Positions 3,261 through 53,729 of a DNA stretch of 64,000 nt are shown here, one piece after another; the first letter of the stretch is position 1; each line of letters starts with the position of its first letter. Under the pieces are notes generated by a model. The model did no database searches, was not told where the DNA came from, and saw only the letters and a list, made by a program, of their open reading frames with translations. A program made the position numbers and the translations under genes. Source of the stretch: Thuidium tamariscinum (Eukaryota > Streptophyta > Bryopsida > Hypnales > Thuidiaceae); NCBI GenBank assembly GCA_947034885.2, contig OX344752.2, forward strand, positions 26,292,386-26,356,385. Direction: 5' to 3'.

Positions 3261-3673
3261 GTGAGTCACGGTACCCGTTCGATGACAGTTACAAGACGAA
3301 GCATGGCTGCTGCTGCTGCTGTTGTTAGGGTTTGCTTCTCTATGGTCAATGATCAACCCTCTCTTGGAAGCTGCTCGACCTCTACGCCGCGCAGGTACCT
3401 CGGCAATTCTCTTCAACTGCTTTCCAATTTCAGCAACGGGAATTACTCTATCATCAGCATTGTCAGTTGCAGCTTGCTTCATCCAATTTCGAAAGCCACA
3501 GTTTCATGTGTCGTCAAATTTTGGAGGAGCTTATATTACTTCTTTGGTTGGCGCAATATTGCAGTCCCAAGAAGTTGTGCAGAAAAGGAGAATCGAGTTG
3601 AATTTCTTCGATCTTGGACAGTTGTGTGATTGCATTTGAGTTTGTTGCTGAGTGAGGTGCCTTAGAGCGGACC
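3261..3673 (+). promoter_or_regulatory. Probable 5' leader of the FLX-like gene, with upstream ORFs
   Basis: This G+C-richer stretch directly precedes the FLX-like start codon. It has upstream ATGs, for example at 3304 (followed by a run of alanine codons) and 3322. Their frames run 122 and 105 codons and end at 3629 and 3639, before the main ATG at 3674. None matches a family I know, so I read them as leader uORFs. The main ATG sits in a strong context, GCGGACCATGG. The exact transcription start cannot be seen. Confidence 0.4.
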
Positions 3674-6600
3674 ATGGGGAGTCGGAGCCGCATGATGGGG
3701 CTGAGTTCGCGATCGGGGGCTCAGAGTGGGAGGTTGAGTCCTTACAGAGGCTCCCCGATGGGTGGCGGTGGAGCGCAAAACATGGGTGGAGGAGGAGGGC
3801 CATTGCCCGCCGCCATTCTGGAGCAGAAGATTCAATCGCAGCACATGGAGATCCAGAATCTGCTCACGGAGAATCAGCGTCTCGGGGCTACGCAGGTAGC
3901 TCTTCGCCAGGAGCTTGCCGCGGGGCAGCAGGAAATGCAGCGCATGACTTCCATGGTGGCAGGTACCACGCAAACCTCTTGATTATATTATACATGACCT
4001 TCCCTGTAATAAAATTTGAGAAAATCCTGTACACTTCCCACATTATCATTCACTGTACCTCAGCACGCTCGCACATTCAAACTGTGTCAGTTGGGACCTC
4101 AAACGGTAAGATCAACAAGGATTTAACTAGTGTTACGCATCCAAACTAAGACTGCATTAAGGTGTAGAAATTGGCTAGATTTCAGATGGATCACCATGTT
4201 GAGCCATTCTTTTGCAACATCTCTGTATTTTACACTGCATTCATCTGGCGCTTTTCCTAATTTTTAACTTTGTTTTTGTTGGTAAATGTTTGAGAATTCC
4301 AATGCACTTACGAATGCTTTATTTCGATACCATATAAAATAGTTATAATGTTTCAAAATTCATTGGTTGATGTTGTAATATCGCCTCTCGATCATATGTA
4401 CGTGGAAGTGGTGCACATCCTTGAGGGTCCCATGCGACTTTGGGTGTACCTGACTTCCGTATTACACACTGTGTCCGTCAAACACCGTTCGTTAAATTGG
4501 CGATGTTCCACGAGTCAAAAATTGTGAGATATACCTTCACCAAGGGTCTAATTGAAGACCACAATCTAGGACAGGTATTGAATTTGATTTCTGGCTGCGC
4601 CAGAGTACTGAAATATCGACAATTTAACAAAATTGACGTTTAATCCAAATACGTTCAGTTCAAGACATCTTTTTTCAAACCCAAACCTCTCTAATTGCAC
4701 TGCCTTGAGGTACAAATGAGCTCGTGTTCCCAACTTGACATTTGAAAGTTGTCCAATCAGTTTTTGCCGACAGTCTGATAGATTTTGAAGATATAGTTAC
4801 AGAGAATCTGTAATTACAGAGTGTCATTAGAGACGTTTTTTGCGATAAATTGAGATTCTTTAGTAACTAAGGGACTTGAATTCTTCACGTTTAGGCATGC
4901 AATCAGAGAAAGACGCGCAGATAAGATCGCTGATCGAGAAGGCTGCGAAACTGGAGTCGGAGCTGCGATCTACTGAGACTGTTCGGCAGGAGCTTATTCA
5001 AGCCCGAACCGATTGTCAGAAACTGCATCTGCACTCTCAAGATCTGACGCAACAGGTGCGGACCACACAGCAGGAATTGCAGCGTGCCCGTGCCGATGTG
5101 CAACAAATCCCTCTGTTGCGAGCGGAGTTGGACACCCTTCGAACCGAAATGCAGCGAGCCAGGTACTCGAATCCAACAGTTTTGAGAAGGTCATTTGGGG
5201 ACTATCTTTGCACAAGTGTAATTTTGTTTAGGGTTTAGGGTGCAATTTCCTTTACTGACTCTAATGACAGATGTAAACTTGGGTCCCAGTTGAATTATAT
5301 TGTTCAAATTATAATCAATCATATCCACTCCCGTTTATTTTATTTTGAGATTTTCAGCCGTGACTGTGGAAGCGTTGGTTTGAGTTTCAAGTTTGTGGGC
5401 TCTCTTCATACAAAGTTTTCAGTAAAACTAATCTTGTTCGGAGAACTTTTAGATTACATCATTATGAATATTCTACATGATTCATTGGGAGGTCTCCCTG
5501 AGGTCAGAATGATATTATGGAAGCCCTTCGGCTATGTATCATGGGGAAGCTTCTATATGATGATTGTGACCGCCATAGGAGAGCTCCCATGAAGACGATT
5601 CTCTTTACCATGCAGCTGTTCTAGTCAATTGTACCAGTGTTCCTCAACTTATTGCCTGCATTAGTTTTAATATTTTCATTTTCTGGTTATATTGATGCTT
5701 TCCTTTTTTATCTGCTTCAGAACTGCTTTTGAAATTGAGAAGAAATCCACTGCTGAGCAGCAGGAGCAGAGACAGGTCATGGAACACAATCTGGTGGTTA
5801 TGGCCAGAGACTTGGAGAAGCTGCGAACAGAGGCGGCTAGTGCTGAGAAAAGATCTCGTATCAATGCAGGTGATTGGAGTTGTGAGGTTTTTGTTTTGAG
5901 GGACGTGTTTTTTGGCAAGAAGCAAAATTGTAGTTGACTCTACTTTCTGGGTGTTGTTTTCTGCAAGGAACAGGTGGCGCAGTGTTCAATGGTGTTTACA
6001 ACGGCACTGAGGCTGTTTATGCACAATATGGGAATTCTAAGAGTGTAAGTCTAATGCCCTTAATATCAATTCCTCATTCTCTTGCTGTAATGGAGTTTTT
6101 GTCGTGGTACTGTGTCTGTGCCTGGGTGTTATCTATTAAGGTAGAGGATACTACTTGTATCATTTTAACATTTGTAAGAGTGTTTCGGGGGAGATCAGTA
6201 TAGTCAGAGCTGTGGGGAGACTTTTGGGTTGAAGAGTCAAATCTGTTGAAATATAATTAATACCACCATTTCTTATGCAATTTTAAAGTGGGAGGGTGTA
6301 GACCACTATTGAATAATAGACAACCCAATTTCCATTTGAAGGTCAATGGCCATTGACCACTTGCTAATTGAAGGCCAAACATATTAATTGAAAGAGATGG
6401 CTTGTTGTTGTTAGCAGGGGTCAGCATAGGAGTCCGGATAAGGTAGACGGTTCGGTATCGTCTACCTTATCTAGTAAGAATGCAAAATCTTACAGTGGTC
6501 TTTGGCATTGTATACAATCTTGTTTACGACAAATGTTGTGCAGGAAGCAGCAAATGGTCTTCAACCTTCCTCCACAGTGGTGGAGAGTGATTATGGAAAA

Positions 6601-9600
6601 GCTCTAACAGAAGCTGCAAAGGCAACAGCATCGCAAGGTGTAAATAATGCTTATCATGGTTCGATGGGAACGCAGGATCTTTACAGGGCAGGTGGTGATG
6701 TAAGAGTGACAGAGGAGTGGGCCACACATGAGGCGCCCAACGGCAAACCATTTTATCACAACGTTATCACGGGCACAACGCAGTGGGAGAAACCACCTGC
6801 CTTAGAGGCTCAAAATCATGCTCAGGTTCTTCTCACAAACATGCTAGTTTTGTTTCTCAATATTACTAGAAAAAGTGAACTAAATTTTCAAGTTCTCAAC
6901 CATGTCGTCACTTCTGGAGCAATATATTTAGGCCAACAAATAACTTATTGAAATTATTCACAAAATGCCCAAACTGCCCAAGCTTAGTCAGTTAGATATA
7001 GTATTCTCTCCTGCTGACTTTCTTGCTAACTTTCTTGTAATGCAGTTTCATTCATTTTTTAAGTTAAGTATCCAAATTTAGACAAGTAAACTCATTGTGT
7101 CTATATCAATGGTTTGAAGTCTTGAATTTGCCCACACCTACCAATTTGCAATTGTTATAATATAACTTAAAAGCTTAATTTTGCATTTGTTAATTCCAAC
7201 CAATTAGCAGGATTGGCTAATTTGAAAGCCTAATTCTGCATTAGTCAATTCATCAAGGTAGGCATTCAGTAGGTTAGTTAACATCCAATAGACATCAACA
7301 ATAATTGGTGCTTGTATATTGGAAGAAAGCAACTCGCAATAATGAAAATGCTTGATGTAATTAACCTCACTCAATACTTCTTTAATCTTACCACTGGGGT
7401 CTCAACCTTTCACTATAACATACTTTAAATTTGTAAGAATTGTGTTACAATCAATGATAGTGTGGTAGGTGCACATGGTACTCTAAAATGCCATGTTAGA
7501 AAAGATCGTTCTAAAGAAGCTTGAGTGTACCAGAACTCTTGTGAAGTACATGATGTTCATCTTCATGTACTGTGACTCGCAGGCGCATATGCAACAGCAA
7601 GTCACAAATTCACAAGCCTTGCAGACAGCTGCTAACCAAATAATTGCAAGTCATGCTTTGACTACTCTCATGAACGGACAAGTTCAACAAAATTCCATAG
7701 TACCTCATCTTCCACAGCAGCAATCAACTGGGGCAACTCTAATTGCTCAACATGGGCAAGCTCTCACTCAAGTAGGCGCAAATGGAGCTCAAATCCCTTC
7801 AGGGGTTGCAGTTGGGCAATACACCACTGGTTACGTTGGGCAACAACAACCTGGAGTCTATTTGTCACAATCAGGTACACTTTTTCTTCCTTGTCCATCT
7901 CATATTAAGTAAATTGTAAGGCCCTCAAGGTGCCTGAGATATCATTGGAAAGCTCTCAAACGAGATGAGGTATATGGCTCCAAGTTTACTCCGTCTGCGG
8001 AACCTATCTTTTTCTTCTTCTTTATGTTGTTTTTTAATGCAATGGTGATTGTCTCTTTGAGGAAAAAAAGATGAGGTGCATGGCCTAGGTTTTGCACAAT
8101 GCGGACAATTTGACAAATAGTATCATTCATTTAAAAATTTGTCAAAATTTAACAAAATTCAGCAATGGTTGGGTGGTCACAATTGTGGCAACAACACAAT
8201 GTATACTAGTTTCAAATGATGCTTGATGACATGTAGAAAAAAAGAAGATTTTGTGCTTGCTAGATTTTTTGATTGTCAAGGGATCTGCACAGAGCTTAGA
8301 ACTTTTGCAGGGGCAATAACATATCCAAGTACCCAATTGCAAATTCAACAACAACCTGGTTCTTATGTTCAACATCCTGGGATGGTGCAAACACAAGTTG
8401 GAAAAATTCAACAAGCTGTAGTCCCTGCAAGTCTTCAAATGCAAACTCCAGTTGCTGTTCAAGGATCCCATCTTATAGCAGTCCCTGGACAAGCTCCACA
8501 GACACCAGCGCCTGCTCCAATGCCCCACCTTGTCCATGGCCATCTTAGTTACCCAAGTGCTAGATTGCTTCCACTACAAGGGCCTGCACATTTAGCTAAT
8601 GGTATCCAACATCCCACCGACTTAAGAGTCCCTATTGCCTCCTACCCCTACTGTAGCATAGCAATCAATCTTGCAATCGCCCCTAGATCAACTCATTTAA
8701 ATCAAATTTTCAAGCAGTTTGCAAATAAATTTGAAAATAATGTTTTCAAAACACCATTACATCAAATTCTACTAAAATCCTAAACTCAGTACATTCTAAT
8801 TGCAACTTTAGCAAATAATTTAACTTTGAATTATTATTTAGTATCTAACTTTAATTTTCAACTTAAGCATTTTTGAATCTTGCTCAGGTGGTTATACTGC
8901 TGCAAATGCCCAACAGCAGCAACAACTTCAACAACAACAACAACAATTGCAGCAACAACAGATTCAACTTCAGCAGCAGCAACAACAACAACAACGTCAA
9001 GAGACACAGGCTTCAACACAGCCTGGGCAGACTGCTACCCAAGCAACTGCTCAAACAGCTCCTGCTCCATCAGCTCAGACCCAGCCACAAGCTACAGGGA
9101 ATGGCACCCAAGCAGGACCACCTCCAAATGGTATAAAGCTACACTTAAAAAACCTTTATTATGACCAATCTATAATTCTACATTGAATTTCTTAGTCATC
9201 TTGCAGACATTCTTGCCACACTTGTAGCTCACTTGCAAAAAACCTCAAACCTCAAATCAATGTATAACACTCATTTGTCATACATTCAAACTATGTCATA
9301 TATAAATTAATGAAGAAATCGAGACCTTTAGTGCCATAACTATCAAGTTTCTTATTTGAGATATTTGCACTAGCTAAGTGTTGAGTGCATTTACAATGTT
9401 GTGCTTTGAACATGATTGTTAAATTTCATGTCATTGATGATTTTGTTTTATATTATGAAGTTTACTCTTGGTCCAGGTGCAAAGCTTTTTGTATTTGGCA
9501 TCCCTGAGGACATGGGGGACAAAAAGTTGGCTGACTTGTTCGCCCCATTCGGAACTGTAATATATTCAAAAGTTGGGGTGGAGAAGGAAACAGGGCGGAA

Positions 9601-12242
9601 TCGAACATATGGTATGTCCCTAGTCTTTTCCATGCCATACATTGCTTCTTAATTAGCATTACTTGATTATATTTTCAAATGCCCCTTGGAGGTTGCTTGT
9701 GGTATGAGGCATATGTCACTTATGGTGAAAATTGATGTTTGTGGGGTATGAAATCAAGCTTCAAGATTGAAATAAAAGACCTAAAAATTGAGATAATTAC
9801 AAGGTAGTTACAATTTAAAACACTAAGTACTTATACGACAAAATGGTTTCCCTTGATTTGGTTTCTAAAGTAGTAGTTTTTTCCTCTTTTTTTCTCCATA
9901 ATTTTTAACCTAACACAATGAAATACCAAGGGTTGGGTTCCTTTACAAATGTCAAGATTATACAATCCAAGACAGTGTGTGCCTTGTGAATAATGAAGAC
10001 TCCATTGACTACCATTACACCTTTTCATGCAATGATTGTGAGCCAAAGTAATTGCTTAAAGTATTTTTCTCCATTTAGCTACGAGCTTGGTGTTTATTTT
10101 AACATATTATTGGTAGATGTTTGATTTGGTCTATGATATATTAAAGATTTGTTACAAATATATAATTACATCAAGATATAGACCTTGATGTGAATCCCAA
10201 TGTGATTTATAGTAATTACATGGAAAATTGTAGATGATGAGTTAACACATCAATTGCATCAAGAACTCTACTAGATTTTTTAGAAATTAAAAACGAGATT
10301 CCATTACCATATTAAATCACCAAGTTTTCTTTATTGTGAGAGCAAGTTTTATTTCTTCATTATGAGCTTTGTATATTTCATTGTGATCTTAAAAGTAAGA
10401 AAAAACATTGAGGACCATATCATTCCTAACTAGCACAACATCTTAAGGTTAAATAAAAAGATTTGCTAATATCTAAAGTTTTTTACTCAATTCACTAGGG
10501 CAATTTATAACAATTTTATATCATTCAACAATCTTTAGTTTTCATATTCCTTGGAAAACTATGGAGATTAATAAATTCATCATTACAATGTTGAAGCTTT
10601 TAGAGTAATGTAAATAGTATCTTCTAGCATTGATCCTATTGCAATTCTATAAATATCAATTATATACTATATCATTCAATACTTTGAAAACTCCAAGTAG
10701 TAAGTAAGTTATTATGTGGATGAAAAATTGGGTGGAGGTGAAAATTGGATACATCACAAACTTATTATTATTAGCTATTTGCACATCTTAATTTTATCAC
10801 AAGAATGCATGCATCTATATTAAAATAAAACAAACATGCATATATAATTATATGTGATGATTATCAAAGTATAATATATTTATTTGTTTACATTTATTGT
10901 CATATATTTATTTGTATACTATCATTCTAAATCATGTCTAAATATTCAATAGGCATTATTAAGTAATAATCAATTGTATTAGTAATAATACAATGTTTTC
11001 TTTTGGTAGAGTCTATGAGATTTGTCATCTATAGAAATCTAGATAGTTTTATTATAGAATCTTACAACTTTTTGAAAGAATTTGAAGAATTTTTATATTA
11101 AAAAATAAATTAGACTCATTTTTAATAATTTTTTTTACATAAACCTACATCAAATTTGAAAGGAATACTGGTTTTGAATTGGAAAAAAAATTGCATTTCA
11201 ATAGATAGTGGAGAGTTTTTAATTTATTGTAAAATAAATAGAAATAATGTTTTATATTTTCTAATTTATAAAAAATAAAATGGAGAGGAAATTCATTTCT
11301 ATTGGAATGGAGTTGATTAAAAGACTATTTTTCAAGAACAATTATACTATCTTAAGAAATATCATGGAAGATTACATTTTACAAAAATTATCAAAATAAT
11401 ATTTTATAAATGATTTGCAACACAAAAATAACTTCATTTCATTTTTAAAAATATTGCAAGACTTCATAATGATTGATTATTTAATCTCAAAACTAGAAAT
11501 TTGATGACATTAATTAGTTATACCTGTAATTTATTTTTATAAAGTCAATTACATCTATTTTTTGTTGAATGCAATGAATCATGTGCAATATTGAGGATGG
11601 TTTTCAAATAAAAAGAAACTATTACAATATTTTTCAAATAACTTAAGAGGTTAAAAATAATGCAATTAATGAAGAGATGCTTCCATCCTTTGTCTTTGGG
11701 TCTCTTCATGACTACATACATGTATTTACTTGCTATGTGCTTATATTACTTTTTGAATAATTTGATTTACAACTTTTACCAATTTGGATGAAAAATTTAA
11801 GATGTTTTTTATGATTGATTAATTTAGTTAGGATCATTTTATTGCAAATCTTTTCAAAATTAACATTGAATATCATCAAAAAAAAATGAAATACATTAAA
11901 AAGCTTTGTTTTAGCTTTCATTGATATTCTATCTTAATAATCCAATTAGGTTTTAGTAGCTCATACAAATTGGATTACATGCATCGCTTATTTTTCTCCC
12001 AAGCAGGTTTTGTTTCTATGGATTCATCACAATCTGCTGAAGCAGCAATTAACCAAGTCAATGGTATGGTTATATCTGGCAAACGTATTAAAGTGGAGTT
12101 GAAGAAGGGTGAAACTGAAAATCAAAACCAACAACATCAACACCAACAAGTCTCTCACCAACATCAAGCTCCTTCTGGAGGACCTGGTCCTACTAGATGG
12201 AATCACACTCATAATGGAAATCCAGGCTACCGGCCTTATTAA
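3674..12242 (+). CDS. FLX/FLL-like coiled-coil protein fused to WW and RRM domains (10 exons, 751 aa)
   Basis: Coding exons: 3674-3962, 4895-5162, 5721-5869, 5974-6044, 6544-6825, 7583-7874, 8311-8601, 8888-9130, 9477-9611, 12007-12242. All introns are GT-AG, phases agree at every junction and the total is 2256 nt. Residues 1-30 are G/S/R-rich. About 35-235 is a long heptad-rich coiled coil with FLX-family hallmarks (AILEQKI, then LLTENQRL). A short G/Y-rich piece closes the FLX part. A WW domain follows with W318, W340 and the P of WEKPP. About 354-628 is Q-, P-, A- and G-rich, with near-pure glutamine runs in exon 8. About 629-707 is an RRM (RNP2 LFVFGI, RNP1 around 671-678) most like RRM3 of CELF/Bruno proteins. 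The tail is H/Q-rich and ends GYRPY. Inferred role: nuclear RNA-processing factor. Arabidopsis FLX and FLL proteins have only the coiled-coil part; FLX acts with FRIGIDA and FLL2 with FCA. Two separate genes are unlikely: no stop, start or promoter-like break separates exons 4 and 5. Confidence 0.88.
6437..6471. repeat. Perfect 13-bp hairpin in intron 4 of the FLX-like gene
   Basis: GATAAGGTAGACG at 6437-6449 is followed by a 9-nt loop and the exact complement at 6459-6471. The core AAGGTAGA resembles the termini of the TA-flanked element at 61699-62122, so it may be a collapsed element end. It lies about 70 bp upstream of the exon 5 acceptor. Confidence 0.6.
8918..8997 (+). repeat. CAA/CAG repeat encoding poly-glutamine
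   Basis: Almost uninterrupted CAA and CAG codons at the start of exon 8 of the FLX-like gene encode Q runs broken only by occasional L and I. Such imperfect tracts vary in length and are typical of prion-like, condensate-forming regions. Confidence 0.85.
9612..12006 (+). other. Long A+T-rich intron 9 of the FLX-like gene
   Basis: This 2.4-kb intron splits the RRM just before RNP1 (TY|G). Donor GTATGT at 9612 and acceptor AAGCAG at 12001-12006 are canonical. It is much longer and more A+T-rich than the other introns. I see no gene in it and no clear element ends. Confidence 0.75.
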
Positions 12243-22192: not shown

Positions 22193-25100
22193 CTATGAAA
22201 GTGCAACACTACCACCAGCTTTTGAAACTTTGATAAATACATCTTCCAATGTGGTATCAGTAAGTCCCCATGCTTGAATGTGCAAACATTGCTTTGCTTG
22301 CTCCATTTTCAAGAATACATCTGCAATGCTAACTTCACTCTTTGGTAATTCAAACTTTTGTGTGCCAGCAAGACCATAGACTTTCTTGGCATTTTTAGAC
22401 AAGTCATTGGCCAACTCAATCACTTCTCCTTCTTTTCCTTGTGGTGTTGTAATTGTCAACACATATAGGCCTCCAAATCTAGCTCGAAGCTGTATTATAT
22501 ATCACAACAATCATAGTCATGAGATCGAAGGTGTTTAATCCATAACAAATTTATACAAATTTTCTTGTCTCTTTTTCCCTTGTGTGCATTAATATTATTA
22601 AAAGATGTAAGATAGATTACCTCTTTCGCATTACCAATGCATTGGAGCTCCCCATTTACAAAAATACCCACTCGATCACACAAGGCTTCAGCTTCCTCCA
22701 TAGAATGAGCTGGAATGGTATTCAATAAATAAGTACATAGACAAATACCTTCTCTATTGTTTAGTAATAGACAAATTCAAAATGCTCTAACTCTAAAGCT
22801 TTGAACATAAGTGAAGCAAAATCTAATCCAAAATGATATGGTATTTGAATGTGAGGTTCTAGCCTAAATTGGAGCAAATATGACAAATGCAACCATGTCT
22901 AATTATCTTATTTTAAACTACTACTTGTTTGTGTCTACAAATCTTCAAACCTTTAATCCATTGTCAAATATAAACTTCTAATCCATTTATGAAATAATGA
23001 TGGTCAATTTCACTCCAATTTCTTTTTTTAAAGATTTTTTTTAATATTCTCATTCAAAGCCTAAAAAACACATTGAAAAAATAAAGGACTATGGACTCTT
23101 TGGATTTCATTAGTGGTTGATATTACAATGTTACCTATTTTTCTACAAAATTTTGTACAAAAATGAAACCAATGCCATTGTCAAAAAATTAATGCAAAGG
23201 AGATCTATTATGAAAGAAAAATCTACATCACTAACTCTAATATAGCACTTCAATTTTAGAATGAGAATAATGCAAACAATTTTAACAATGCACTTTTTCT
23301 TTTAAAAACAACCTTCATGTGTTATTTTAGAAAAGAAGTGTTTTGATTGTTGATATAACAAAATTTCTCATATTTTTCACTTCCCTAATCAAAATAGAAC
23401 TAATCAAAGAATTTATTGTAGAAAAGACCTATTGCACAAGTGATTCTTTCTAATTTTTTTTTAGCTTTAAATTTTATTTTAGCTTTAAATCTTACCTCAT
23501 TTGATATTTAAAATAGCCAATTGGTCATTATTTTTTATTTATGAAATTTAGCTTTTCTTGAAAATATTTATAATTTTTACCCCCAAAAAAGTTTTAAAAT
23601 AAGACAAAGTCAGCACTAAAGAATCATAATCTCTATTGTTAAAAAGTCAAGATCCAACCCTTGGGGCTTTTGACTTAATTATTATAAGATTTTCTTGAAA
23701 AAAACTCATTGTTAGAAGACATAGCTTACTTGTGAGGATGATGGCACGGTCTAGCTTTGAGTTCTTTACTACATTCCAAAGATTATATCGAGATGCAGGA
23801 TCAAGACCCGTGCTTGGCTCGTCCATATACACCACCTGAAAATATTTTATAACGTATCTTATCTCTTTAGCAAAGAAATGTTTTTTCTATTATGAAAGAT
23901 TTTTGAATAACAGGCAATGAAGGTTGGAAAATAGGCAATGAAGGTTTTACTTGTGGATTCCCTATAAGGGAAATTGCAACACTAAGGCGTCGCTTCATAC
24001 CACCTGAGTACTTTCGACATTGTTTATCTCCCACTTTGTTGTCAAATAAATTAACATTTTTTAAGGAAATCTCCACCGCCTAAGTCAAATTAAAGATCAA
24101 ATCTAGTTTTACATATATGAAATAAATTATAATTTTCTTAATTTTACAGGAAGATTTGTGCATTATTAAGCTACATAGAATGATATTTCACCAACATATT
24201 GAATATTTCAATCCCAATTTACTTGCACTATAATGAAGGTATTCAAACTCACATCATGAAGTTTTTCTCTTGACAAATTTTTTAAACGGCCATAAAAGAG
24301 AAGATGTTCACGAGCAGTTAGTTGCCCCCATAACAAACTACAAACAATATGTACAAATAATGTCATAAGTTTCTTAGAATTGGTGAATGTGAAACATGCA
24401 ACTAATATGCTACAATATTGCCATTCAAAGTATTATTCTAAACAATTTGAAGATTGAAGTTCAAGGTTGAGATATATTCATACTCATGTTGGGGGCAAAC
24501 TCCCATACACGAATAAATGCGACTCATTTCTGTGAGAATATTCATCCCTTGAATGTATGCGGTGCCCATCGTTGGCTTCAAAAATCCTATCATCTACAAT
24601 AGCAAAAGACATGACATTAATTTCAGTTACCGAGGATCAAAAAACTCCTTGAGAAAATAACAAAGTATTATCATGGAGTAGAATTTAGGGTTTTAGGTTG
24701 AAAGATAGGAGCATGCCATGTTGATGCTACTAGTTTTGCCTGCCCCATTTGGACCCAAAATTCCAACGCATTCACCTCGAGCAACTGCAAGTGAAAATGT
24801 TCGAACAGCAAACTTGGGCGGGTTACCATCTTTTGCAGGATAAACTTTCTTTAGATTGTCGCAAATGATAGAATAAAGCTTATTTGGTCTTGAACGCAAT
24901 TCTTGCACCAACTTCTTCTGTATACAAATTTTATATGATGATACATCAACATTCACCAAAGTTGTATTGCTTTGCAATCAAAATTCACAATATCAATCAC
25001 AATATAGATCAGAAGATGGTTATGATATTTCACAATTCCTTCTTATAATGTCTTGAACTCAACATTTCATTTTTTCCTTCACCTCACAAATGCTTGCAAT

Positions 25101-42400: not shown

Positions 42401-42956
42401 AGTTTAGGTCAGAGGGACTTACTGCAGCCGAATCTTGGACTTTGAATCTGAAATTCCACTTCAGCCGACGATTCAAGTACTCATGCGTCTAGTCAGGAAG
42501 ATTACTTTTGGGGTTTCCACTCAATCGCAGCCCCATCTGCAGATCTCTCCTGCCAAGAGTGTCTTGGAGTTCACCAGCTCTTCCTGTGCTTGTTGAGAGT
42601 TGAGTAATCTTTTAGGTTTAGGGTTGAAACGCAGCTACGGGTTGATCGAAAGGCATGACTGTACAGGGCTTTCTGTTTAATTTGACCGAGAAAGATTCGT
42701 TTGACAAGGCGTGGCCCCAGACATTTGTAGCTGAGTTCAGGTAACCCTAACTTTCCCATGGTCGTTGCAATCAGTTTGCTGAAGTTCTCCACGGATTGCG
42801 GAATCTAGTATTTGCTGGAGTGTTTGTGGTATGAATTTGCTACCAACGAGAGATTTGATACTCGTAAGAAGATGAAAATCTCCAGATCGCGAAGCAGGAT
42901 TGTTTTCGCTGACTAGCCAGAGATAGAATCAAATCAGGGTAGGAGCGAATTCGAAA
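42401..42956 (+). promoter_or_regulatory. Probable promoter and 5' leader of the DUF716 gene
   Basis: G+C content rises sharply from about 42400, as at the other gene starts in this window. The minus-strand ORF 42571-42792 has no recognisable motif and is taken as chance. The transcription start cannot be placed. Confidence 0.4.
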
Positions 42957-44282
42957 ATGGTGAGCCAGGGGGGCCACATCTTGCAAGGGATTATTTTCTT
43001 GTCTCTCGGAGTGTGGCATCTGGTGTGTTTCTTTGCAACCTACGTGAAATCGCCGCGAGAGTACACTGCGCGCGCATGGTATCCGGTGGGTTTGCTCCCC
43101 TCGAAATACAAGCATCTGGAGCTCTACGGTTTGCTGTTCATCCTCCCGTTGGCCATATTCTACGACCTCGGAATCTCGGCACACTTTCAACCGCAACGCG
43201 ATGGTGGCATGCCGACCAGCAGCATCATGGGATTCGAACATGTCACCATTCTCTTCATGTTCTGGTTGTTTGCGTTGACAGTGCTTGTAAGCGATGCAAC
43301 CGCTTTTCTCCCATTTCCAACGGAGGGTTCCTTCCTTTTCGCCAGTCTGGCATTTGGATTGCAGTGGCTGTCCATTACTCATAGTGCAAGCCAGAGGTCA
43401 GATTTTGAGCGGCAGTGTAGCAACTTGCTGGCATATACGGCGGCTGCATCCGCAGTTTCCTCAGGTACGAATTCAACCCCGAGTACGGTACTTGCGACAT
43501 TCCAATTTGACAAATTTGTAAATTTCCTTCATGCATATATTGTGTTTGCAATTGCTATGCGCCCAACCCTCTCTAATGACACGCACTTTAGTTGCACATT
43601 TTCTGTCTTCCCTGAGAATTTGTTTTGTCATTCCACATGTCAAGTTGTGAACACATGTCAGTATGCATTTAGAAGCCCATTTCTGCCTAGGCATTGTCAC
43701 TAGAGAGGGTCGAGTGTAACTGATTGCATGAGATACGCATATGCAGAATCTTAGTATGCTCGAGAATATGGCATTAACATCAAGAGTATTCGTTGCCCAG
43801 TTTTTCACAGCAAGGGTGCTGCATGAAGCCCTAGCTGAAGCTTTGTGTCTATCGTGGGTCTTGCAGGTTTGCTGGTGATTCGACCAAGGGCTTTCCTTGT
43901 CAATTTGGTGTTGTGCCTCTCTCTCATCTTACAAGGAACTTGGCAGTTCCAAATGGCGCTCTCGCTCTACTCCGAGAACTACATCCCGATGGGATGCGAG
44001 TATTCTCCTGCCATGGGTGGGCAGGGGGACTTCACATTTTTGAGCTCCACCCGCTGTGACACCAACCAGGCTGCTAACGTCCGGGCAGTGGCCCTCATGA
44101 ACTTCGCATTCAACTGCCATGTGATTGCGGTGGTCTTCTTCGCAGTCTTCACGTTCGGCATCATTGCCAGATTCAAAGGCCACCGTCGCAGCGCATCCTT
44201 GGACTCCATTGCTGCAGATTTTGAGATCGAATCTGAACTTGTGCAGCTGAATCAAGGCAAGTTGAGCTTCGAGAGGAGGTAG
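42957..44282 (+). CDS. DUF716/TMEM45-family multi-spanning membrane protein (2 exons, 307 aa)
   Basis: Exons 42957-43464 and 43867-44282 join in frame (S|G, GT-AG) and end with TAG. The start MVSQGGHILQG is typical: TMEM45/DUF716 proteins begin with a short tail, a GH motif and a first helix with G.WH, here LSLGVWHL. About seven hydrophobic segments follow, including around residues 7-29, 61-80, 104-122, 128-146 and 170-192. A conserved G-T-W-Q follows the fifth segment (LILQGTWQF), and a Cys-containing loop (MGCEYSP) sits before the last helices. The C-tail is polar and charged. Members are found in plants and animals; plant ones have been linked to stress or virus responses, but no biochemical function is established. 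Length matches the family. The upstream region is GC-richer, and the 44.3-49.3 kb stretch after the stop is gene-free. Confidence 0.88.
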
Positions 44283-50487: not shown

Positions 50488-53400
50488 ATGACCGAAGCAC
50501 CACAATCGGGGCAACGAGAGGAGACATGTCGTATTTGTCTCGAGTCGTCTCCAATCGCTACCATTAATCCTGGAAGCGTGTCAAGGATTACTGATGTGGC
50601 AGATGAGGATCGTTTAATTTCACCTTGTGCCTGCAGCGGTACTTAATCATCAATCCGCAACTCCAAAGCATGCCACATTTGATGATTCGTATTTTTAGAT
50701 CTGTGCTTTGTTCCGGCAGATTTTTTGTTTCAGTAGTATTTTTGCTTTCACCTCTCATGTTTTTATATATTTTCTTTCTTTCTGACACCTATCATGTGAG
50801 TTTTTATCATCCCTTGCAGTGTAGTCTTTTCATTTTATTCACAGATTTTCATATCCTATGATTTTTCTGCACGGGGTACGTCACGAGTAAGCATGTTTCT
50901 TTCAATTTCAATAACCATTGTACGAAGGAGTATAGGGCAGAATATCCAGTACGATCCATGTGGCACTCTTACTTGTAGTAGGGTTTGTTACCAGCATCCT
51001 GCGTCAAGTTTGCACAGTCTTAGGTATTTTCATATCTAGGCATCATCAAATCATTGTTTCTAGTGATGCAGGAACTCAAGCGTACGTGCATTACAAATGC
51101 CTGCAGAGATGGCAACAGTCCGTGATAGCATCAAAAAGGACTGGCCCAGGATTACTAAGTCCGGCGCTAATGTAAGACATGAATTCTTGTCATTGCATGC
51201 TGAACTATCATGGAACCAAACTTTTTCACTTGTGTTTACATCATAAAAATTGGCTTATGTTATGCATGTCCTTCACAGATGTTCCGTGTGCACACACAAA
51301 TTTTCTGTAGCCCCACCACGACCGACAGTGAGCTTCCGGATGCGGAAAATTTGGACCAGTTATGCTTGTGAAGTCACAGGCATTATCATCATCTTGGTAA
51401 GCTGCGGATTCTTGAAATGCTCTCATCGTGTTATTATGAGTATGAGTCCAAGATTTTAGGCATCATTTTTGTTTATCTATAACAGTATCTTCTACGAATT
51501 CTTATCTGTATGGTCAGTTGATGAAGAGAGAGAGGAACTCGTATGGAACTTTATTTGCGACTATGAAATCTCCGGATACCAGCATATCGAACTTGTATTT
51601 GTTGTTGATGTCGTCGTGGTTTGGATCATGGTTTTACACACCGAGGCTTTCTTTTAAAGAAAGGATAGATTGTCAAGCTGCTCCTAGTTCAGACCCTTTT
51701 CATGTCCAACTGCTCTACCAATGTGTTTTTGGGCGCTGACTTCCTTTTTCTTCTAGCTTGCATGCTACGTGGCACTGGCTGGCCACAACTTACAAACCCT
51801 TATCGATAACTTTGAGAATGGTCTCTCACTGGCTATCGAGGTATTGCCATGCAGCCTTCAGATGAAGGTTTTGGAGGATGGTTGTAACTCCAGAACATGC
51901 AAGTAAGCCTGCCTTCATTTCATTCTCGATTGTAAATATCTCGGTTCGTGCGAGTTTAGAATCAATCCGCTGGGAATTTATTCTTCTCATTTCGTTGTAA
52001 TAGACTTTTGGACCGCAGATGATAATTCTTTAGAGTGATTGGTCATTGCGGGATTTTCATTTCTATGACAATTCTGATTTCTAAGTGTGGCATTTGACGG
52101 AGAGCTATTGTGCTATGTACAGTATACTCGCTATCATGTTGTAGATCCAACCGCTGAGCATCTGTTTCCTATCCTCAAAGTGAATTCACCGACCCTTAGG
52201 TTAACCATTTAAGTAACCGAAGGAAGCACTCTTAGAATTCTCTATGTTTAGGCGTATGTAGCATAGCGACGGGGTGACAGGAGTCGTTTGATTGGATGCA
52301 ACAGGAGAGGCGGAGAGAGCAGTGCTGCGATGGGAAGGGTTAGTTTGCCGAGGTAAAAAACTAACCCACGTAGCGAACCCTGCAGCACTTTCAAACTGGG
52401 GAGCAGGTGGTGGGATTCTTCAAGTTCTTTGCACCCTGGCACGCTCTTGGTGGCGACTCCAACAATGCTATCTCCTTACTACTTTGGCACTGTGGTGCGT
52501 CCTTCCACATTCTACGCTAAAAGCATTGATATTACAGCCGTTTATCGTGTCAACTCTTTAATGAACATAGCTTGCATAAACATCGCAATTTATACATGTA
52601 CTCTATGCAGTACAGGAAACACTGGCAATGAGAACACCCACATTGTGATATCCAATTAAGAAAAAGTGTAAACCCTGTTTTTTAGGTGCTGCTATATGAG
52701 CACGAAAGGTGCAGAGGTTCTCGAGGGATTATACTCAACAAGCAGTCAGAGGTGAGCTTGTGACGAAAATACATTGTTTCGTGTTGATTTTCAGCACGAT
52801 GGCTTTGGAATGATTTGTGCTTTGACTTGAACAGTTTTGATCTGACATTTGATGAGACCTGGCGTGATTTCTCTGCTGGAATGATTGGTTTGTTATTGTT
52901 CTCAGTGCATCTGTTGCTCATTGACGGCATAATGAATCTTCAGTGACAAAGCTTCTAGATAGTGAATTTTGTGTAGAGCTTTGTTTCTTTAGAGAGAGCT
53001 GGCGACGTTTTACCCAAGCGTGTCAGTGGCATTTGCCTTTGTCAGAAACCTTGGAAACAGGAGAGGACTCGATGTTTGATTGTAATCAACATGTTGAGTT
53101 GGACCATTGAACATCATGAATCTCGCATGCCGACCGACGTATTCCTCTTGAGAGACGGATTGGGATCATTCATGTCCGAATTGATGAGAAAAATTTGTTC
53201 CTTATATCAGGAAGGAGAGATTCTTAACTGGGAGCGCCAGCTTTTCTTGGGAGTCCAGAATAGTGCCGCTTTGAGACACGTTTCACACGGTAGAGGCGGA
53301 TCTCACAAGCCAGAGGACTGGTTCATATTGCAACGCTACTCCTCATTCCCTGTCAAGTGTAAACATTGCACCGCGGAGACAATGAGACCAAAAACGTGTA

Positions 53401-53729
53401 GCAAAGACTGGGGAAGGGAAGTCCTCCCTGGAATATTTTTGGGCAAGGACGTGGGGCCTGTATTACGCCATCTTAATGACTGTAAAAGAGTAAGTGTATT
53501 TAACCAGCAAAGTAGCGACAAGTTCGAAAGTATGAAGGAAGAGAAAGGAAGGAAAAGTGAAGAGTGTTATAATGTTGATCACCAGGTCATACATGGTCAT
53601 GCTGAGTGGTATGTTGGACAGTTGGCAAGTGCTGTGAGGCGTGGATTGTGGAAAGCGAGAGAAAATGCTTCAGCCATTCTCCTTTCCACGCCCCCTCACG
53701 AACTGTGGCATACTCTTGTCACGGAGTAG
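50488..53729 (+). CDS. RING-CH (RINGv) zinc finger joined to a UPF0301/AlgH-like domain (9 exons, about 411 aa)
   Basis: Proposed exons: 50488-50638, 51072-51171, 51279-51396, 51757-51840, 51862-51902, 52305-52352, 52386-52494, 52686-52751, 53211-53729; phases agree and the total is 1236 nt. Exons 5 and 6 and the acceptors of 7 and 9 are the least certain (alternatives at 52281, 52407 and a longer exon 9). The RING-CH ligands are C14, C17, C47, C49, H57, C60, C85 and C88, a full C4HC3 set, with CACSGTQAYVH in the middle. A hydrophobic segment (about 115-132) spans the exon 3/4 joint and predicts membrane attachment. UPF0301 features start at LLVATPTM (201-208), continue with VVLLYEH and GIILNK, then RHVSHGRGG, EVLPGIFLG and near the end GHAEWYVGQL. 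RING-CH proteins are usually E3 ubiquitin ligases, often in endomembranes; UPF0301 has no agreed function. One gene rather than two is inferred from unbroken phase and the absence of a start before the UPF0301 part. Confidence 0.75.

Follow-up and report, generated by a model that had tools for sequence, protein, structure and literature searches.

Can the FLL–FCA partnership, which in Arabidopsis operates in trans, be carried by a single protein chain? The question is raised by a gene at positions 3674-12242 (+) of a 64,000-nucleotide stretch of Thuidium tamariscinum DNA (G000:C4:26292386-26356385, the whole of which is referred to below as the window). The gene is predicted to encode, from N- to C-terminus, an FLL-type coiled coil, a WW domain, a glutamine-rich (Q-rich) stretch and an RRM. 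In the available text of PMC11962161, Arabidopsis FLL2 is described as a coiled-coil protein required for FCA condensates and function, and FCA as a protein with two RRMs and a WW domain between two prion-like domains, which interacts with FY of the polyadenylation machinery. As judged from its sequence, the window gene is very likely a protein-coding gene for one chain. The favoured explanation as a whole, namely a gene composed of an FLL-type part and half of an FCA-type gene whose product acts in cis, is given a probability of roughly 0.6.

Structure of the window gene

The gene comprises ten exons in one reading frame with one stop; 9/9 introns are of the GT-AG type and their phases agree. 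The first in-frame stop upstream of the start lies at 3653, with no ATG in between, and the G+C content of every exon exceeds that of the adjoining introns. The protein has 753 amino acids (aa) with the exon-4 acceptor at 5968 and 751 with the acceptor at 5974. The latter length had been given in the preliminary description, and its ten-exon, single-frame model with consistent phases is borne out by the GT-AG introns and by a paralogue that repeats the order (see below). The exons, and the intron that separates the FLL part from the WW part, are as follows (nt, nucleotides).

Exon 1, 3674..3962 (+): start codon, Gly-rich N-terminus and beginning of the FLL-type coiled coil (aa 1-96); the paralogue exon is also 289 nt
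Exon 2, 4895..5162 (+): FLL-type coiled coil; 268 nt in both paralogues
Exon 3, 5721..5869 (+): end of the coiled coil; 149 nt in both paralogues
Exon 4, 5968 (or 5974)..6044 (+): FLL-type G/Y/N (glycine, tyrosine, asparagine) tail; its counterpart in the paralogue matches exon 4 of the coil-only gene
Intron 4, 6045..6543 (+): 499 bp, separates the FLL part from the WW part
Exon 5, 6544..6825 (+): linker and the entire WW domain (aa 318-345)
Exon 6, 7583..7874 (+): Q-rich, of prion-like composition
Exon 7, 8311..8601 (+): Q-rich; motif APAPMPHLVHGHLSYPS from aa 519, unchanged in the paralogue
Exon 8, 8888..9130 (+): poly-Q/Q-rich
Exon 9, 9477..9611 (+): first part of the RRM (CELF-RRM3 type)
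Exon 10, 12007..12242 (+): remainder of the RRM, His/Gln tail, conserved end GPGPTRW...HN.N.GYRPY and stop TAA

Pfam places the WW domain at residues 318-345 (E 4e-9) and RRM_1 at 634-704 (E 5.4e-16); this is the single RRM_1 stretch of the protein, and the two N-terminal RRMs of the FCA family are lacking. Residues 348-629 contain 25.9% Q. Q-rich sequence lies only C-terminal of the WW domain, the part N-terminal of it being a linker. No Pfam family matched the coil above cut-off. Its heptad contrast of 10.18 was reached in 0 of 500 shuffles, by a narrow margin (best shuffle 10.12). A comparison of the first 232 residues with viral contigs gave 15 pattern-matching stretches and 0 confirmed relatives. 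It should be noted that intron 9 (9612-12006) measures 2395 bp at 25% G+C, as compared with 1361 bp and 38% for the paralogue intron at the same place; the repeats found in this AT-rich intron are short and at most 84% alike.

Conservation in a paralogue

A search of the organism's own genome with the WW domain (14 matches; all own-genome searches cover 363 Mb on 19 contigs), followed by reading of the surrounding 20 kb, identified a full-length paralogue at G000:C1:19883385-19891929. It encodes 793 aa with FLL coil, WW domain, Q/P-rich stretch and RRM. Every shared intron is in the same phase, and exons 1, 2, 3 and 9 are of identical length. Window exons 7 and 8 correspond to a single exon of the paralogue, which has one additional proline-rich exon, skippable in frame.

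Non-synonymous and synonymous divergence (dN/dS, in that order) between the two genes was 0.19/2.58 for the coil, 0.05/1.50 for the WW domain and 0.08/1.27 for the RRM with the NG86 method, the WW domain showing the lowest dN among the modules. Judged from these values, coil, WW domain and RRM are under strong purifying selection. The motif APAPMPHLVHGHLSYPS is unchanged between the paralogues inside an otherwise loosely kept Q-rich part. NG86 dS ranges from 1.0 to 2.6 by module (1.5 overall), indicative of an old duplication. Its exact age is uncertain, because YN00 gave lower dS than NG86 (coil 1.00 vs. 2.58, WW 0.81 vs. 1.50; no value for the Q-rich part). A chance arrangement or mis-joined exons were rejected on the strength of the paralogue, the phases and the selection.

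The C-terminal half and FCA

The WW search also led to the FCA locus of this genome, at C1:38082838-38089825 (minus), modelled as 19 exons in one frame ending in a stop. The modelled order is RRM2, Q-rich stretch, WW domain, short linker and a C-terminal RRM3 of CELF type; Pfam recognizes two RRM_1 stretches and the WW domain in this part, and RRM1-like pieces lie upstream of the modelled exons. The C-terminal half of the window protein matches this FCA in domain order, without RRM1-RRM2: its WW domain adjoins Q-rich, prion-like sequence, a trait of the FCA family, and it ends in a CELF-type RRM3 as the FCA of this genome does. The preliminary description had held that the protein is not simply FCA plus FLL, on the grounds of an RRM like CELF RRM3 and a domain order unlike that of FCA. 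This statement is corrected by the FCA of the same genome, which itself ends in WW, linker and an RRM3 that, of the RRMs compared, is closest to the window RRM after that of the paralogue.

For the WW comparison, the 14 genomic matches were read from the DNA; 13 of them were used, together with the spliced FCA WW domain in place of the 14th. The WW domains of the window gene and the paralogue score 86 and 85, respectively, with that of FCA, which is their best match after each other (next 60 and 65). Reciprocally, the best matches of the FCA domain are the two fusions (86 and 85), followed by 75. Separately, near-identical WW exons were observed at G000:C2:17948781 and C7:5918440, and several other open frames in both stretches are near-identical too.

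The window RRM is identical to that of the paralogue at 0.86 of positions, to FCA RRM3 at 0.57, to RRM3 of the genome's own BRN at 0.49 and to CELF1 at 0.43. Among solved structures its nearest single-domain match is RRM3 of CELF1/CELF2 (76.7 and 76 bits), as had been proposed beforehand, while multi-RRM chains (PABP, HuR, HuD) exceed these by whole-chain score; the fusion RRMs and FCA RRM3 behave alike in this respect, with multi-RRM chains such as PABP higher by sum. The genome gave 22 RRM matches, of which L044, L047, L048, L050, L052 and L053 entered no tree and L036, which nearly duplicates L038, was omitted. The RRM tree unites window gene, paralogue and FCA RRM3 in a branch supported at 98/98 (21 rows) or 95/89 (19 rows, two long rows dropped), compared with 96/98 in an earlier tree. 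In these trees the branch falls inside the CELF/BRN RRM3 group (80/82 with 21 rows, 88/91 with 19), nearer to FCA RRM3. Thus, of the two phylogenies called for in the preliminary description, that of the RRM groups the domain with FCA RRM3 inside CELF/Bruno RRM3. An RRM unrelated to FCA was rejected, as the genome's own FCA carries an RRM3 that groups with it. Two BRN/CELF-type RRM3 copies with equal scores were seen in opposite orientation, about 14 kb apart (G000:C1:11831066-11832325 and 11845894-11847153), and look like a recent inverted duplication.

The coiled coil and a coil-only gene

Searching the genome with the coil returned ten exon matches: three in the window gene, three in the paralogue, three in a third gene and one in a broken fragment at C1:33800262. 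Five exons make up the third gene (C1:26131383-26136349), which encodes 312 aa consisting of coil and G/Y tail only. The window coil resembles it exon by exon. Its last three introns are in phases 2, 1 and 0 as in the fusion; intron 1 is placed elsewhere. No WW or RRM match was found in the 13.6 kb read downstream of it, and a search of the genome with the coil-only protein returned no additional full gene. A weak match to its coil (31 residues, E 0.019) was recorded at G000:C1:5204347-5204439. The broken fragment, at G000:C1:33800262-33800501 (minus), is like exon 2 of the paralogue and contains several stops.

A presumed Arabidopsis FLL2 sequence gave 162-181 bits with the three plant coils (window 162) as compared with at most 63.5 in 200 heptad-block shuffles. 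NCBIfam returned weak coiled-coil look-alikes only, far below cut-offs. FLX/FLL proteins are characterized as coiled-coil proteins without RNA-binding or WW domains, from which the window protein departs by carrying WW and RRM in frame. The comparison with the presumed FLL2 agrees with the preliminary description in its naming of the coil. With the FLL name taken from that sequence, the proposed combination of FLL-type coil, WW domain, Q-rich stretch and CELF-like RRM in one chain is supported.

Origin of the fusion

The fusion probably combines an FLL-type gene (exons 1-4, coil and G/Y tail) with an FCA-type C-terminal half (WW domain, Q-rich stretch and CELF-type RRM3). The joining appears to have preceded the duplication that gave rise to the window gene and the C1 paralogue, possibly before the FCA introns reached their present form. 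Coil-only FLL and FCA are found as separate genes in the same genome, and the fusion therefore comes on top of the two and does not take their place.

Several observations weigh against this assignment. On the FLL side, the coil found no FLX/FLL match in Pfam, NCBIfam or the PDB (the latter at E <= 1), and the FLL name is a lead that rests on the presumed FLL2 sequence and not a database test. On the FCA side, the WW tree was unresolved, for which reason the scores alone were used. The introns differ as well: FCA, unlike the fusion, has an intron within its WW domain and additional ones in its RRM. No resemblance of the window protein to FCA was noticed apart from WW and RRM3, no formal test having been made. 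The Q-rich part (dN/dS 0.56/1.25) and the linker (0.53/1.50) are kept more loosely than the other modules, and the RRM tree is based on 83 columns. Moreover, forcing window gene and paralogue together with BRN/CELF RRM3 to the exclusion of FCA RRM3 was not rejected (approximately unbiased test, p-AU 0.088; 0.104 in the earlier tree), and the intron in the RNP1 glycine is in phase 1 in the window gene and in BRN RRM3 but in phase 2, in the same codon, in FCA.

The last two points, and CELF RRM3 as the nearest solved single domain, speak for a different source, in which the WW-RRM half derives from a CELF/BRN-type gene and the WW domain was gained independently. Such an origin is unlikely, albeit the best placed of the alternatives. 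The trees put window gene and paralogue with FCA RRM3 at 95-98 bootstrap, the RRM is more similar to FCA RRM3 than to that of BRN, and the WW domains are reciprocal best matches with FCA. In addition, among the 14 WW matches only FCA and the two fusions have an RRM in the DNA read around them or an RRM search match nearby, a weak argument as the RRM search missed the split RRM3 of FCA.

Proposed function

By analogy with Arabidopsis, the protein is tentatively proposed, at somewhat less than even odds, to be a one-chain condensate scaffold in RNA 3' processing. The coil would oligomerize with itself and probably also with coil-only FLL, whereas the Q-rich stretch and tail would favour condensation. 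The RRM would hold nascent RNA, and the WW domain could bind partners rich in proline, for instance FY of the cleavage/polyadenylation complex. A single chain would then perform in cis the task that FLL2 and FCA share in trans in Arabidopsis, namely the formation of condensates that favour 3'-end processing at proximal sites. The binding partners and the part in 3' processing are taken from Arabidopsis, which counts against the proposal.

Conversely, the fusion could act as a dominant-negative or storage form that ties up RNA sites of FCA type, or partners of FLL, but does not bring in the 3'-processing complex. The lack of the RRM1-RRM2 of FCA is as expected of a competitor, and SSF, a homologue of FCA, acts against FCA in Arabidopsis according to the available text of PMC7673134. 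Still, the module conserved best (dN 0.05) is the WW domain, a likely recruiter, and a role as competitor is regarded as rather improbable, slightly more so than the CELF/BRN origin discussed above.

The FLL-like last exon in intron 4 of the paralogue

In the paralogue, the fourth intron contains, at C1:19886263-19886352, a pyrimidine-rich acceptor followed by MPYALESAVGYGPRPAPTWGGPPHKMPRR and a stop. Aligned from the first residue, this exon scores 44 over 20 columns with the last exon of the coil-only gene, at the same intron position and in the same phase (0). For comparison, the best background score was 18 in 4110 frames aligned the same way and 35 with free local alignment (2480 and 3905 frames). 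The two exons share 40 of 60 bases, spread as 13, 12 and 15 of 20 over codon positions 1, 2 and 3, as compared with 41/50, 44/49 and 26/49 in exon 3 of the same two genes, a control with a coding pattern. The conservation is clear but not demonstrably protein-like, given that the third codon position is conserved at least as well as the first two. Poly(A)-like signals near the stop are weak only and lie 160-170 bases on. No FLL-type last exon was found in the window's own intron 4, where the best local score was 20 (18 frames) vs. 44 in the paralogue.

By sequence comparison the exon would be either a relic of the FLL gene that gained the FCA half, or a working alternative last exon with a choice between short FLL and fusion. 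A more elaborate and somewhat doubtful reading is a poly(A) switch. Use of the exon would yield coil-only FLL and its skipping the FLL-WW-RRM3 scaffold, the 3'-processing activity of the fusion could feed back to the short form, and the window gene would have lost the exon and become fixed in the long form. FCA is reported to feed back on its own gene, to which the proposed loop may be likened. If true, the pair would represent an old system that sets FLL-FCA coupling by poly(A) site choice, the type of switch on which its own parts act.

The presence of both an FLL-like last exon and the WW-RRM part in the paralogue makes either direction of change conceivable, including an ancestral fused gene from which coil-only FLL was derived by loss of the WW-RRM part. 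In this one genome, coil-only FLL and an FCA with its own WW domain and RRM3 are both present, and the loss would still need an older WW-RRM source; a fused ancestor is thus considered improbable, and the joining of an FLL-type gene to an FCA-type half is retained as the favoured origin.

The FLL-like last exon also bears on whether the fusion is one gene. In the WW exon of the paralogue (exon 5), an in-frame ATG is lacking both ahead of the WW domain and inside it, and an in-frame stop lies upstream at 9837 without an intervening ATG. The exon therefore needs upstream exons; were the WW-RRM part a gene of its own, additional first exons would have to exist unseen. In the window, the sole in-frame ATG before the WW domain is codon 302; the 39 aligned codons preceding it are 49% identical between the paralogues (dN 0.40, dS 0.97). 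A rival model treats the fusion as two neighbours joined in error, of which an FLL gene would stop within exon 4 or intron 4 and a WW-RRM gene would begin inside intron 4. It would agree with the separate coil-only FLL and FCA genes, with the FLL-like last exon and stop in the paralogue and with the ATG at codon 302, but is very improbable in view of the exon-5 phase that fits exon 4 in both copies, the order kept in both, the lack of an ATG in exon 5 of the paralogue below an in-frame stop, the conserved stretch before the window ATG, and a window intron 4 of only 499 bp without an FLL-type last exon. Two transcripts, the case that the preliminary description had named as refuting a fusion, are likewise made less likely by the paralogue and retain a small probability.

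Other features of the window

Open frames matching an ABCA-type transporter (ABCA12_C, ABC_tran) are located at 22196-22501 and 24696-24977 (minus). A further open frame at 52977-53726 (+) has an AlgH-like DUF179 match (E 5e-7), and one at 42927-43700 (+) has a weak DUF716 match below cut-off.

Comparison with known systems

According to the available text of PMC7673134, FCA and SSF (At2g47310) are the only Arabidopsis proteins with both RRM and WW domains; thus, this text reports no Arabidopsis FLL-WW-RRM protein. It also describes two Physcomitrella FCA-type genes, which were chosen for having both RRM and WW, and FLL-WW-RRM fusions could therefore be hidden among them. The available portions of PMC8612926, PMC3538716, PMC8350573 and PMC12448315 contain nothing on an FLL-WW-RRM fusion, and neither an FLX/FLL-WW-RRM fusion nor a three-RRM FCA was found in open-licence titles and beginnings of abstracts, among the matches listed. 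The architecture may already be deposited in protein databases without comment.

Cooperation of FLL and FCA in 3'-processing condensates is known mainly from one flowering plant. An FLL coil and an FCA-type tail in one chain, with two copies kept under selection, would be independent evidence that FLL and FCA cooperate, and the sequence suggests that the two have long been partners in mRNA 3'-end formation and that this partnership can also take the form of one molecule. The fusion also predicts which parts need proximity, i.e. the coil, the Q-rich stretch, the WW domain and RRM3.

With Arabidopsis FLL2/FLX the window protein has the coil in common (by way of the presumed FLL2 sequence), and the coil-only gene of this genome has the intron phases of the fusion (2, 1, 0). 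The window protein adds WW domain, Q-rich stretch and RRM, whereas FLL2 is described as a coiled coil in the available text of PMC11962161. Common to FCA and the fusion are the Q-rich or prion-like stretch with the WW domain and, for the FCA of this genome, the C-terminal CELF-type RRM3. The fusion differs from FCA by an FLL coil in place of RRM1-RRM2, a longer Q-rich stretch after the WW domain and other introns in WW and RRM. SSF and the window protein share the presence of RRM and WW domains. CELF/BRN proteins are built as RRM1-RRM2-linker-RRM3, and the window protein has just the RRM3-type domain; a phase-1 intron is found there as in BRN RRM3 of this genome, but RRM1-RRM2 are absent and a WW domain and an FLL coil are present. 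Finally, the FCA of this genome with its C-terminal CELF-type RRM differs from the two-RRM Arabidopsis FCA described in the available text of PMC11962161, a difference that would tie FCA to the CELF/Bruno proteins and account for the odd RRM of the fusion.

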